This document shows positions 19,546-23,867 of a stretch of 64,000 bases of DNA, one piece after another. The stretch is from NCBI GenBank assembly GCA_019637805.1, contig JAHBVB010000001.1, positions 261,875-325,874 of the forward strand. Direction: 5' to 3'. The notes beneath the pieces were generated by a model. It was not told where the DNA came from. It did no database searches and saw only the letters and a program-made list of their open reading frames with translations. Numbering within the stretch: the first letter of the stretch is position 1; every line of letters begins with the position of its first letter. This stretch comes from Anaerolineales bacterium. Lineage in GTDB: Bacteria > Chloroflexota > Anaerolineae > Anaerolineales > UBA11579. Made by a program: the position numbers and the translations under genes.

Positions 19546-21804
19546 CTATTCGGGGCGCCTCCAAGCCAGGTGCACACGTGTGCCTTTCTTCGGCGCGGTG
19601 ATCACGCTAAGCTTGGCCCCCATCATGGCGGCGCGCTCCTGCATGCCCGCCAAACCAAAATGGCCGTTACCCAGGAATTCGTCCAGGCTGGCGGAGTCTT
19701 TCAACCGGAAGCCGGCCCCATCGTCTGAAACGGTCAAATCCACACCGAGCGCATCAATCTTGCCTTCAATCACCAGGTGGCGGGCGCGTGAGTATTTGAG
19801 GGCGTTGTCAGCCGCTTGCTGCACGATGCGGAAAATATGAACCTCAATCTCCGGGTCAAAGCGGTCCAGGCTTAAGGGTACAGCCAGGCGAACATTCAGT
19901 TTCCGGCCGGCTTTGCGGGCCAACTGCTCAGTTTGCTCCACAAGCGCGAAGTACAGACCCTGGTCCAGCAAAGGCGGCCGCAGGCCGTTGATCATGCGGC
20001 GGATCTGGCCCACCAAACCCTCCAGCTTGGGCGCCAACTCCGCCCCCACCTGGCTTCCGGCCACCTGGCGCACCAAGTCGCCCACCTGGCCCAGAGTGTC
20101 ATCATGCAGCTCACGCGCCAAGTGGATGCGTTCAGCCTCCTGGCGCTGCACATTGGCTTGGTAGAGTGAGCGCAGGTCACTGGCCTGGCCTATGTTGACC
20201 AGGGCGATCGCCATCTGGTTGGCCAGGGAACGCAGCAAACGCAGCTCCGCCTCGCTGTAGTGGTCATCCGGGTCCTTGCGCCCCAGCAGCCACAAGCCGC
20301 GCGGCTCTCCCGCCACCACCAGAGGCAGGCTGACCTTGGCCCACTGCTGCGCCCGGCCAAAATGCACCTGATCGACCAGCGCATTGGCAGACAAGCTAGC
20401 AAGCACTTTTTGCTGGGACTGGTTTGGCAGGTTGTCCGCTTTCACGCCCTGCAAATAGACCACGCGGCCTGTGCTGCGCATGTCGAAATTCATCAGGGCG
20501 GATTGGCGAATGAATAAGGCAGGCAAGACTTCTGTGGTCAGCAATGCGGCCAGATTGGAGTGAGAAAAACTGGTGGAAAGCCGGCCGGCAAATTCCTCCA
20601 GCAGACGCTGCGGGGTTTCCGGGATGCCCAGAATCCTACGTTCGACAAATTTCTGAAACCCTGAAAAGCCGAGGATGCTGAACAAAGAGGCCACCACGGC
20701 TGTGACGACCACCACACCGCCCGCCCCAGTCAGTCCGGGAAACAACAAGGTGGTGGTAGGCAACAGCAGCAGAGAGAATGTCACCATCAGCACGAGGAAC
20801 AGGTACAGGGAGATGGCCCGGTTGGCGCGCACTTCCAAATCGCCCAACCTGCGGCGCATGGCGATGTACAGATAGGCGCCGGGCAACGCCATCATCGAGA
20901 TGACATAACCCGGCAAGGTGGCGGATGCGTTCGGCCGCAGGGTGGTCAGCGCCACCACCGCGGCGGGCAAAAAGGCCACCCCGGCGCCGAAGAGGATCAG
21001 GCCAATTTCCTTGCGCTCTGCCTGGCGCAAGAAGAAGCGGTAAGTGAGCAAAGCTACGCTCCCCAGGACTGCCACCAGGAAAGCCGAAAGGTAGGAATCA
21101 TGCGGAGTATAGCCGAAGAGGTAACCCAATGCCGCCAGGATCGAAAGGCCATACAGGGCAGGCCAAACAAACCGGGGCAATGTGCGGATCTCACGGGGGA
21201 GGACCCAATGAAGATGCAGGTAGATGGGCAGACTGAGCCAAATGCCCATGCGCAGAATAATCGGTGAAAGCAGCACCCCAAAGCGCGAAAGCGTGCCGGC
21301 CATGAACCAAATGGCCGTAACGTAGTTGAAGCCCACCAGCAAGGCCCAGCGCTTGTCCTTGGGGCGCAACAAGACCAGCGAGACGGTGCCCGCCAACCAA
21401 AAGACATAGCTGACCCACCAGGTATTGAAAAAGCGGGAGGAGAACTCACTGGGCGTTGCCCCAGCCACCTGCCAGGTCACTAAGGAAACGGTTTCCCCTT
21501 GGCGCACATCCAAGAGCAGAACATCACCTGGTTGGCTCAACGCCAGCAAGTGCAGCCCCACGCGCGATGTGGCTTCCGGCCAAGCCCGGCCATTGACCGC
21601 CATGATCTCGTCGCCCACCTCCAGACCCATTTCAGGCAAGTGGACCTCGGTGATCTCCCCATTAACGCCGCGATATTCAAACCCCAAGTAGGGAATGCTG
21701 TAAAAGCGCGCGTAGGTAAGGACAAACAGCACCCAGAGAACAAAGGCGGGCAAGAAGATCTCGCCTAAACGGCGGCCCCCGGAAGTAACGCTGCTTTGCA
21801 TCAT
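19546..21804 (-). CDS. ComP-like membrane sensor histidine kinase with PDZ-like segment
   Basis: About 752 residues, close to the ~769 of Bacillus ComP and built the same way. One N-terminal helix is followed by an extracytoplasmic PDZ-like stretch (VNGEITEVHLPEMGLEVGD, then EIMAVNGR and LDVRQGETVSLV), then about eight to ten membrane helices (~130-395), a GAF-like cytoplasmic region and HisKA_3/HATPase_c domains. The phosphorylated residue is His567 in LARELHDDTLGQV; the N box is QQAADNALKYSRA and the G box SDDGAGF. It is divergent from a ComX-like peptide gene and a ComQ-like prenyltransferase, so it should sense the modified peptide. The start is unclear: ATG at 21804 (no ribosome-binding site) or a TTG at 21840, six bases after TATGAT, as a leaderless mRNA. 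Confidence 0.85.
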   Translation of the reverse strand: MMQSSVTSGGRRLGEIFLPAFVLWVLFVLTYARFYSIPYLGFEYRGVNGEITEVHLPEMGLEVGDEIMAVNGRAWPEATSRVGLHLLALSQPGDVLLLDVRQGETVSLVTWQVAGATPSEFSSRFFNTWWVSYVFWLAGTVSLVLLRPKDKRWALLVGFNYVTAIWFMAGTLSRFGVLLSPIILRMGIWLSLPIYLHLHWVLPREIRTLPRFVWPALYGLSILAALGYLFGYTPHDSYLSAFLVAVLGSVALLTYRFFLRQAERKEIGLILFGAGVAFLPAAVVALTTLRPNASATLPGYVISMMALPGAYLYIAMRRRLGDLEVRANRAISLYLFLVLMVTFSLLLLPTTTLLFPGLTGAGGVVVVTAVVASLFSILGFSGFQKFVERRILGIPETPQRLLEEFAGRLSTSFSHSNLAALLTTEVLPALFIRQSALMNFDMRSTGRVVYLQGVKADNLPNQSQQKVLASLSANALVDQVHFGRAQQWAKVSLPLVVAGEPRGLWLLGRKDPDDHYSEAELRLLRSLANQMAIALVNIGQASDLRSLYQANVQRQEAERIHLARELHDDTLGQVGDLVRQVAGSQVGAELAPKLEGLVGQIRRMINGLRPPLLDQGLYFALVEQTEQLARKAGRKLNVRLAVPLSLDRFDPEIEVHIFRIVQQAADNALKYSRARHLVIEGKIDALGVDLTVSDDGAGFRLKDSASLDEFLGNGHFGLAGMQERAAMMGAKLSVITAPKKGTRVHLAWRRPE

Positions 21805-21812
21805 GGTTTTTA

Positions 21813-21825
21813 GAAAGGAGGTGAT
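21813..21825 (+). promoter_or_regulatory. Extended perfect Shine-Dalgarno sequence without an obvious gene
   Basis: GAAAGGAGGTGAT, complementary to the 3' end of 16S rRNA over 13 bases, lies on the plus strand between comP-like and comX-like genes. The plus strand offers only tiny ORFs from it (GTG at 21821, 16 codons; TTG at 21825, 10 codons). It may be a leader peptide signal or a ribosome standby site for the comX mRNA; on the comP mRNA it reads as an anti-SD-like sequence. Confidence 0.4.
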
Positions 21826-21897
21826 TGCTGCAGACACCAACCGCTCATCATACGTAGACCCTATTTCCTAACTATGAACAAGAAAAGGAGATTCTCC

Positions 21898-22044
21898 ATG
21901 AGCATTCAAGCATTTCACGCTTCCCTCTTCGCCCAAGATGAGCAACCCGCTTTGGTGACCGAGCTTTTCAACATCACTGAGGCCTCGCTCAGCGAGGTCC
22001 TGGCCGTTCGTTCAGAGCTGGCCTGGGACGCCTGGACGGAGTAA
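21898..22044 (+). CDS. ComX-like pre-pheromone peptide (48 residues)
   Basis: A 48-codon ORF with an AAAAGGAG ribosome-binding site 7 nt before its ATG. The product starts MSIQAFHASLFAQDEQ and ends ELAWDAWTE. Trp46 is third from the C terminus, exactly where the prenylated Trp lies in ComX of Bacillus (ending Gln-Trp-Gly-Asp), and a second Trp is at 43. The length (ComX precursors are about 55 residues), the helical acidic N-terminal part and the absence of a signal peptide fit a ComX precursor. The gene sits directly before a ComQ-like isoprenyl synthase gene and divergent from a ComP-like kinase. No other sequence similarity to ComX is expected because these peptides diverge quickly. Identity is inferred from context and the C-terminal Trp. 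Confidence 0.75.
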   Translation: MSIQAFHASLFAQDEQPALVTELFNITEASLSEVLAVRSELAWDAWTE

Positions 22045-22053
22045 ACCAACCTT

Positions 22054-22085
22054 CACAGAGGGCGGCTGTTTAGCCGCCCTCTGTG
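22054..22085 (+). promoter_or_regulatory. Hairpin between comX-like and comQ-like genes
   Basis: A perfect 14-bp stem (22054-22067 with 22072-22085) and GTTT loop, 9 nt after the peptide stop codon. There is no T-run after it, so it is more likely an attenuator, processing or mRNA-stabilising structure than a full terminator; it could give more peptide mRNA than enzyme mRNA. Confidence 0.6.
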
Positions 22086-22111
22086 TGTGCCATTGTAATA
22101 GAGGAGGAAAA

Positions 22112-23032
22112 ATGGAAAGGTATTTAAAAGCCGTCAACCTGCTGTTAGAGCATCCGCAAACCTTGCGCTGGCCGCAGCTGCAACAAGCCTGCCAAAGGGC
22201 CCTGACGCACAAGCCGGTGGCCTGGGATTTCCCGCTGCGGGCCTGCCAGGCCACCGGCGGCGATGAGAGCCTGCTGACGCCGGCCCTGGCGGCCATGACC
22301 TGCGCACATATGGGCATCTTGCTGGTCGACGACCTTCTCGACGAGGACCCGCGTGGCCTGCAGCACCAGATCGGCATGGGGCGTGCCGCCAACCTGAGCA
22401 CCGCCCTGCTGGGCATGGCGGCTGACGTCCTGCAAAACGCCCAACCTGAGGTCAGCCAGCCGGCCATCGCCGCCATTGTCCGCATGCAAATGGACACCGC
22501 CTATGGGCAGGAGCTGGATGTGCAAAACCCAAGCAGTGAAGAGGACTATTGGGCGGTGGCCCACGCCAAGAGTTCGCCGTATTTCGCCACCGGACTGTAT
22601 TTAGGCGCCTTGTTCGCAGGAGCGGGCAGGGAAAGTGCAACCCAGTGCTATGAATTTGGGGCCTTATTTGGCGAGATGCTGCAAATCCACGATGACCTGA
22701 ACGACTGCCTTAGCGCGCCAGCCAACGTGGATTGGCTGCAGGGGCGTTCGCCCTTGACGATCTTGTACGCTGAACTGGCGCCCCACGGCCAGCAAACTCG
22801 CTTCAAGGAACTACGCAGCCAGGTGAACGAATCGGCCGCACTGCAAGAAGCGCAAAGCATCCTGGTCAGCAGCGGCGCGATCAGCTACTGTATTAATGAA
22901 CTCATCTTGCGAGAAAAGCAGGCCCGCCAGCACTTATCGCAGATGCAGCTGAAAAACAGCTCGCCGCTTGGCGAGCTGTTGGATCAAATGCTGGCCCCGG
23001 TGCAGCGCCTGTTGGCGCGCGTGGCCATATAA
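22112..23032 (+). CDS. ComQ-like isoprenyl-diphosphate synthase family protein (putative pheromone prenyltransferase)
   Basis: 306 residues (Bacillus ComQ is ~299). It belongs to the trans-isoprenyl diphosphate synthase fold, with the first aspartate motif D73-D-L-L-D77, the second motif D194-D-L-N-D198, a GQELD element at 132-136 and Lys153 in AKSSPYF. ComQ uses these motifs to bind farnesyl or geranyl diphosphate and attach it to the ComX Trp. Here the neighbour peptide gene, only 67 bp upstream, and the ComP/ComA-like genes support that role over an ordinary isoprenoid chain-length enzyme. A strong GAGGAGG site precedes the ATG at 22112. It is convergent with the response regulator, with a 2-bp gap. 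Confidence 0.82.
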   Translation: MERYLKAVNLLLEHPQTLRWPQLQQACQRALTHKPVAWDFPLRACQATGGDESLLTPALAAMTCAHMGILLVDDLLDEDPRGLQHQIGMGRAANLSTALLGMAADVLQNAQPEVSQPAIAAIVRMQMDTAYGQELDVQNPSSEEDYWAVAHAKSSPYFATGLYLGALFAGAGRESATQCYEFGALFGEMLQIHDDLNDCLSAPANVDWLQGRSPLTILYAELAPHGQQTRFKELRSQVNESAALQEAQSILVSSGAISYCINELILREKQARQHLSQMQLKNSSPLGELLDQMLAPVQRLLARVAI

Positions 23033-23034
23033 GG

Positions 23035-23733
23035 TTATTTGCCGGGTTCTTCGGGGAAGATGATCTGCAAGCCCAATTCACGGGCGCGATGAGCCGCCGC
23101 GATCCGGCTATGCACGCCCAGGCGTTTGTAGGCCCGGGACAGCAGATTGCGCGCTGTGGAAGGCGCCACGCTCATACGCTTGGCCAGATCATCCGTGTCC
23201 AGCTCCGGGAAAGCCGTGATTAACGAAATGGCTTCCTGCTGCCGCCGGCTGAGCGTGCGGCTTTCCTCGTTAGAAGTTTGCGCCAGCAAATTGTGCAAGC
23301 GGCCGGAGAGATAGATGCCCCCGGTGCTGACCGAGGTCACAATTTCCGGCAGACGGATGATGGCTTCCTGATCTTCTTTGACAATGTAGCCGGTGGCGCC
23401 TGCTTCCAGCAAAAAGCGGACGAAGGTGGGTTGTTCGTACATGGAGATGATCAGGATGTGGATCTTGGGAAATTTCTCGCGCAGGCGCGGAATGATGTGC
23501 AGAATGGGATAGGGGTTTCGATTTTCCGCCGAATTGGGCACCCCCACATCCAGGATCAGAACATCGACAGCATGCTGGTCGAGCATTTCTTCAAGCTCGT
23601 CGCCAAAGTGTGCGGTGGCTACCACCTCGATGTTCTTGTTGGCAGCCAGGCGCATTTGGTAGCTGTCCAAAGCGCTGATGTGGTCATCCAGAATAGCGAC
23701 CTTGATGTTGTTTGGCTGAGACATTTTGTTCAT
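23035..23733 (-). CDS. ComA-like LuxR-family response regulator
   Basis: 232 residues: receiver domain with Asp16-Asp17 and phosphoacceptor Asp62 (VLILDVGVP), the conserved Lys in GYIVKEDQ, and a C-terminal helix-turn-helix (~165-225, LSRRQQEAISLI...DDLAKRMSVAPSTARNLLSRAYKRLGV). This NarL/LuxR architecture is what HisKA_3 kinases such as the ComP-like protein phosphorylate, and ComA has the same architecture. It lies convergent to the ComQ-like gene. A GAGGTGG site lies upstream of the ATG. Its targets are unknown; I found no copy of the Bacillus ComA box. Confidence 0.88.
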   Translation of the reverse strand: MNKMSQPNNIKVAILDDHISALDSYQMRLAANKNIEVVATAHFGDELEEMLDQHAVDVLILDVGVPNSAENRNPYPILHIIPRLREKFPKIHILIISMYEQPTFVRFLLEAGATGYIVKEDQEAIIRLPEIVTSVSTGGIYLSGRLHNLLAQTSNEESRTLSRRQQEAISLITAFPELDTDDLAKRMSVAPSTARNLLSRAYKRLGVHSRIAAAHRARELGLQIIFPEEPGK

Positions 23734-23867
23734 TTCCCACCTCGTGCTCGTTTTTTGTGTGAATCTGAGTAGTACAAATGTCTACATTTCAAGTACAGCT
23801 GCCTATTTCCAATAGAGACAAACCCAACTATAACAGCAGTCGCGGCACAGTACATCAGGCAAAGCTC

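Follow-up and report, generated by a model that had tools for sequence, protein, structure and literature searches.

Do four adjacent genes in an Anaerolineales bacterium form a peptide-pheromone system of the ComQXPA kind outside the Firmicutes? The 2014 census found ComQXPA-like loci in Firmicutes only, with none outside among 9,590 genomes (PMC4008528), which agrees with the statement of the original prediction that the system was known from this phylum alone. A ComP-ComA kinase-regulator pair was noted in Chloroflexi by KEGG labels (PMC8895600). The open-licence literature yielded no account of such a system in Chloroflexota, though one may have appeared elsewhere. Our analysis supported the view that the locus is a real ComQXPA-like system in Chloroflexota; its prenylation, export and sensing are inferred, and the peptide itself was not seen. 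The locus lies in the window, by which we mean the whole 64,000-nucleotide stretch of DNA that was analysed. An open-reading-frame check indicated that the genes P, X, Q and A are adjacent, with all coordinates, sizes and motifs as predicted, and that longer starts were also possible in the ORF list for the kinase (764 aa), the peptide (56 aa) and the enzyme (315 aa). The features of the locus are listed below.

19546-21804, minus strand: kinase P, 752 aa from ATG, with TM1, an extracytoplasmic PDZ, about 8 further TM helices, a GAF-like part, a HisKA_3-type dimerisation helix (H567) and HATPase
20620-21804, minus strand: sensor region of P (residues 1-395), homologous by hhalign to the sensor of Firmicutes ComP and to that of the type II receptors described below
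21898-22044, plus strand: ComX-like precursor of peptide X, 48 aa, MSIQAFHASLFAQDEQPALVTELFNITEASLSEVLAVRSELAWDAWTE, with an AAGGAG ribosome site
22018-22041, plus strand: probable C-terminal core LAWDAWTE with a W-x-x-W motif, the prenylation target as inferred from the Trp enrichment in tails
22055-22084, plus strand: stem-loop between X and Q, ACAGAGGGCGGCTGTTTAGCCGCCCTCTGT
22112-23032, plus strand: ComQ-like enzyme Q with trans-IDS fold, 306 aa, motifs DDLLD and DDLND
23035-23733, minus strand: ComA-like NarL/LuxR-type regulator A, 232 aa, phospho-acceptor D62
23771-23784, minus strand: TAGACATTTGTACT box upstream of regulator A, largely kept in the genus according to an alignment of upstream regions

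The order P(-) X(+) Q(+) A(-) differs from the one-strand Q-X-P-A order of Bacillus, as had been predicted. The peptide ORF and the gene set were sought in related genomes and were present there. We scanned 84,980 species genomes and obtained 59 further loci of the Q family, mostly in Anaerolineales and other Anaerolineae, some in Caldilineae and Ardenticatenaceae, four in Acidobacteriota, and Plesiocystis pacifica (Myxococcota); the nearest named records were the Anaerolineales MAGs TGS_CHL2, TGS_CHL7 and ACE_CHL1. The order of the window (type I) was found in its own genus and about 30 Anaerolineae loci, while type II loci had the order X(+) Q(+) receptor(+) with a longer receptor. Among 60 relatives searched, 9 of the 10 other congeneric genomes had close Q homologues, as did a minority of the genomes at family and order level, and a wider draw found the Q family in 21 of 298 genomes of the class at E 1e-30; this patchy spread means that it was gained or lost often. 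Most loci come from metagenome bins, so single phylum assignments need care. The Plesiocystis locus is from a named strain, SIR-1, and not from a bin; each of the four Acidobacteriota loci has a bin of its own. Viral contigs held no relative of Q and none of Anoxybacillus ComQ, and a plasmid search with the P sensor of the window found nothing. Two plasmid records carrying com loci of the Firmicutes kind were seen besides. One, of Priestia megaterium (L136:2358-6197), has X-Q-P-A beside gallidermin-family lantibiotic genes and a peptide ending Trp-Val; the other, filed under Stenotrophomonas rhizophila (L132:4896-8860), has a com locus nearly identical to that of Lysinibacillus fusiformis (L107) and may be misassigned.

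To quantify the peptide ORF, we counted a precursor if it started with ATG, had 40-75 codons, a ribosome site and a Trp in the last 14 residues, and ended no more than 420 nt from Q. Such an ORF lay upstream of Q in 49 of the 56 loci with enough upstream sequence, versus 133 of 4095 random places (3.2%) and 12 of 296 places upstream of other genes (4.1%). One of the 49 (L082) was counted through a wrong overlapping ORF, and its proper precursor is also there; in three of the seven failing loci (L064, L093, L095) a precursor is present with its Trp further in. Comparison with L046 placed X under purifying selection (dN 0.009, dS 0.099), with few sites to judge from. Since gene order and peptide ORF recur in relatives, the ORF is enriched over controls and the peptide is under purifying selection, the locus is beyond chance.

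Trp made up 101 of 686 residues in the last 14 positions and 14 of 1928 in the remainder, a twentyfold enrichment in the tails. The peptide of the window ends W-D-A-W-T-E, and W-x-x-W was found in almost all cores, with a single Trp in L069 and L092. Leaders were conserved and cores variable, and the type I and type II peptides were related (hhalign 96%, E 3e-9). The predicted ComX type holds only in its general trait, a short precursor with a Trp within the last 10 or so residues and the rest variable: X gave no match to PF05952 at E 1, whereas annotated Firmicutes ComX do match, and the comparison of the X profile with Firmicutes ComX stayed below 1% in hhalign, neither type I nor type II being similar to the only four ComX sequences used. 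In Plesiocystis pacifica (L095:5700-5972), a precursor with three repeated GWxxW cores (GWEPW, GWQQW, GWQPW) stands directly before the Q gene, and a multi-core prenylated product is possible there.

Q matched Pfam polyprenyl_synt (PF00348, E 1.5e-17), and its AlphaFold2 model (pLDDT 95) showed a single-domain trans-IDS fold with a fold match of Z about 30 to polyprenyl synthases. Its genome (2.34 Mb, 5 contigs, 95% complete) encodes two further synthases, both canonical, with 213 and 195 bits versus 64 for Q, and Q is thus dispensable for chain-length synthesis. We aligned 67 family members with 7 Firmicutes ComQ and 22 canonical synthases. The residues that hold IPP (GKRxR, the His before DDxxD, RRG and the GK after the second Asp-rich motif, SARM) were in all or nearly all canonical synthases and were lost both in the Q family and in Firmicutes ComQ, while the prenyl-donor motif was retained in the Q family. 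DDxxDxD (mostly DDxxDxS in canonical enzymes), K-S for K-T and an invariant Glu are common to the Q family and ComQ. SARM is intact in the Q family (DDxxD in 66 of 67) and degenerate (N/G-D) in Firmicutes ComQ. A glutamine before SARM, named as a Trp-recognition residue (PMC13290415), was tried as a discriminating residue and rejected, being present in Q but also in all canonical synthases sampled. Q is probably a tryptophan prenyltransferase, an activity that is inferred. Four divergent synthase-fold proteins (L112, L113, L114 and L120; family f10), some without a full DDxxD, belonged neither to the canonical group nor to the Q family.

In the tree, the 22 canonical synthases formed one side of a branch with support 100/96 and the Q family and Firmicutes ComQ the other, which confirmed that Q falls outside the chain-length enzymes. 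The corresponding support in a smaller tree was 93, and both trees had a single attachment. For one Bacillus subtilis ComQ sequence, used as search probe and tree row, the nearest match was an annotated B. velezensis ComQ (63%). Approximately unbiased (AU) tests did not reject trees with the Q family and ComQ attached apart (p 0.51 and 0.58), and the view of the two as firm sisters, taken from the tree alone, was withdrawn after these tests. The label of a ComQ-type enzyme is thus borne out by fold, motifs and the lost IPP site, but not as to descent, where independent recruitment is not rejected (AU p about 0.5).

The PDZ and HisKA_3 parts claimed for the kinase were weak by Pfam alone (PDZ_6 0.095 and HisKA_3 0.099, like GAF below threshold; HATPase_c 7e-11) and became clear by family alignment, model and ComP comparison; NCBIfam gave matches to NarQ/UhpB-type kinases. 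Profiles of the P and ComP sensors aligned over 310 columns (hhalign 98.0%, E 2e-13; reversed controls below 5%), which supports the ComP type, and the kinase parts reached 99.9%; the GAF-like part of P did not match its counterpart in ComP. As single sequences against the ComP profile, 36 of 47 receptor sensors reached 50%, versus none of 22 unrelated membrane proteins, of which none exceeded 0.4%. P and Anoxybacillus ComP share one layout: each has 752 aa, and TM1 is followed by a PDZ region (about 90 aa), 8 more TM helices and the kinase. The sensor occurs in one copy per genome in the genus, and overall once or twice per genome, mostly beside Q; sensor and Q occur together in most genomes that have either. 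Regulator A matched Response_reg (PF00072, 2e-12) and, below its cut-off, GerE (3e-4), and D62 and K119 were invariant in 28 relatives. With a receiver, a NarL/LuxR-type HTH and 232 aa (ComA range 196-245 aa), it fits the ComA type.

The type I and type II receptor sensors were also homologous (hhalign 100%, E 2e-83), and the outputs of the type II receptors, assigned by Pfam, were as follows.

HD-GYP-type HD output: L070, L067, L041, L086
HisKA/HATPase output: L069, L077, L078, L084, L088, L092, L094, L096, L101, L102
Hybrid HisKA-HATPase-receiver output: L033, L091, L089, L097
HisKA_3 output: L082

The same sensor with different output domains beside X-Q suggests a common ligand class. Four loci (L138, L139, L140 and L143) have neighbouring P and A without X-Q and are probable listeners, possibly listener-only strains; L142 has a broken kinase copy. 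Several neighbours were recorded in addition. Many type I loci outside the genus of the window have a gene of about 375 aa beside the kinase (e.g., L055:2084-3211 and L057:1827-2966), with weak HTH_31 matches in these two, which were the ones scanned. In L068:8604-12926 and L098:8655 onward, X-Q adjoins a regulator and a large gene, which in L068 is a KS-AT-DH polyketide synthase and a possible target of the signal. In L087:2421-4400 the receptor frame continues, where the contig ends, into the C-terminal domain of ClpB and is probably an assembly chimera.

In 44 of 50 loci a stem of 9 bp or more lies between X and Q, and its sequence differs from locus to locus; such stems occurred in 48 of 341 gaps upstream of other genes and in 83 of 1000 shuffles. 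Most of the X-Q hairpins were without a U tract. The genome of the window has the TAGACATTTGTACT box only once, even with 1 mismatch allowed; we therefore propose no regulon, and no regulator-binding site common to the upstream regions of X and A was found.

Taken together, we are fairly confident that the locus is a peptide-pheromone (quorum-sensing) system of the ComQXPA kind, with prenylation, export, ligand binding, density dependence and target genes inferred. The sequence itself shows the genes, their co-conservation, the loss of the IPP site and the homology of the sensor to ComP. In the proposed mechanism, X would be made as a leader with a Trp-rich C-terminal core. Q would bind a prenyl diphosphate via its first Asp-rich motif and transfer the prenyl group to a core Trp instead of IPP. 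The prenylated core would then be cleaved and leave the cell, with the cleavage point and the means of export unspecified; no dedicated exporter or protease for X was identified. Once concentrated enough, the core would be detected by P through its extracytoplasmic PDZ and multi-helix region, and P would then phosphorylate A, a putative NarL-type activator. The hairpin probably keeps the precursor in excess over Q, an inference from general knowledge of peptide operons.

Three other readings have to be weighed. Q might be a diverged chain-length prenyl diphosphate synthase, with the small ORF and the two-component genes as unrelated neighbours, and the Pfam and fold matches and both Asp-rich motifs would suit this. 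It is already contradicted by the loss of the IPP-site residues across 67 sequences, the canonical synthases elsewhere in the genome and the co-conservation of peptide ORF and receptor over Chloroflexota and Acidobacteriota, and we give it hardly any credence. A partly convergent origin, in which Q arose by separate recruitment of another isoprenyl synthase and only the ComP-type sensor is shared, concerns descent and is compatible with a ComQXPA-like function. The AU results, the unlikeness of X to ComX, the intact SARM and the different gene order leave room for it, but DDxxDxD, K-S and Glu are shared by the Q family and ComQ and both trees have the single attachment. One origin is simpler, given a homologous sensor beside an X-Q pair in both groups, so we regard convergence as unlikely without dismissing it; common descent of the Q family and Firmicutes ComQ appears likely on the whole evidence but is not demonstrated.

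The remaining reading is that the X-Q product is mainly non-signalling, an antimicrobial or surface-active RiPP that P-A senses as feedback, as in lantibiotic systems. Plesiocystis pacifica combines its three-core precursor and Q with no kinase in the 12.9 kb of its locus that were covered, two loci lie beside large genes (the one that was scanned is a polyketide synthase), the Priestia X-Q-P-A locus adjoins lantibiotic genes, and the non-signalling PalQ/PalX is already known as a chemical relative (PMC10853753). However, most loci had no conserved genes beyond the signalling ones, recurring transporter or immunity genes were not seen, leaders are conserved while cores vary, and receptor-only loci exist. 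We therefore judge this reading improbable, and the pheromone system remains the preferred one.

The set recurs in dozens of related genomes and in two further phyla, and such communication is thus probably far commoner than has been assumed. With some reserve, we also favour the wider reading that prenyl-Trp peptides belong to a signalling system shared between phyla, either old or mobile, whose receptor is modular: one PDZ/multi-helix sensor of a W-x-x-W prenylpeptide is coupled to NarL-type kinases, to HisKA/hybrid kinases or directly to HD-GYP, with listener-only strains that lost X-Q. If the pheromone reading is true, some Acidobacteriota, and Chloroflexota of a type that is common in wastewater and sediments, communicate by prenylated peptides; two genes could be enough to produce the signal in E. 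coli; the diverse X-Q pairs would be a source of new tryptophan prenyltransferases; and receptors ending in HD-GYP, a cyclic-di-GMP phosphodiesterase, would directly link pheromones of this class with cyclic-di-GMP. New here are the W-x-x-W cores, the structure-conserved X-Q hairpin, the swapped receptor outputs (NarL-type, HisKA/hybrid, HD-GYP), the listener-only loci and the three-core Plesiocystis precursor.

Of the systems already known, ComQXPA of the Firmicutes, Bacillus subtilis included, resembles the locus of the window in having four adjacent parts of similar sizes: a ComQ with DDxxDxD and a lost IPP site, a short ComX precursor with C-terminal Trp, a ComP with TM1-PDZ-multi-TM sensor and HisKA_3-type kinase, and a NarL-type ComA. 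The window differs in phylum, in the orientation of P and A, which run opposite to X-Q, in the position of X before Q, in an X without PF05952 match and with a W-x-x-W core, and in the intact SARM of Q; gene-order exceptions with X reversed were already in the ComQXPA census (PMC4008528). The sampled Firmicutes peptides have one Trp, versus two in most cores of the X family, and the loci of the Q family differ further in their conserved X-Q hairpin and in receptor outputs that vary among loci. Canonical trans-isoprenyl diphosphate synthases (PF00348) share the fold and both Asp-rich motifs with Q, but they have the GKRxR, HDD histidine, RRG and post-SARM lysine that Q is missing, and another gene neighbourhood. 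The P domain of ChrPC is likewise a trans-IDS-like peptide Trp prenyltransferase, but ChrPC is a two-domain enzyme with a cyclising domain (PMC13290415). In PalQ/PalX of Paenibacillus alvei, a trans-IDS-fold enzyme also adjoins a Trp-bearing precursor, but PalX, unlike X, carries an NHLP leader, its Trp is strictly C-terminal, and it was described as a RiPP product and no signal (PMC10853753).
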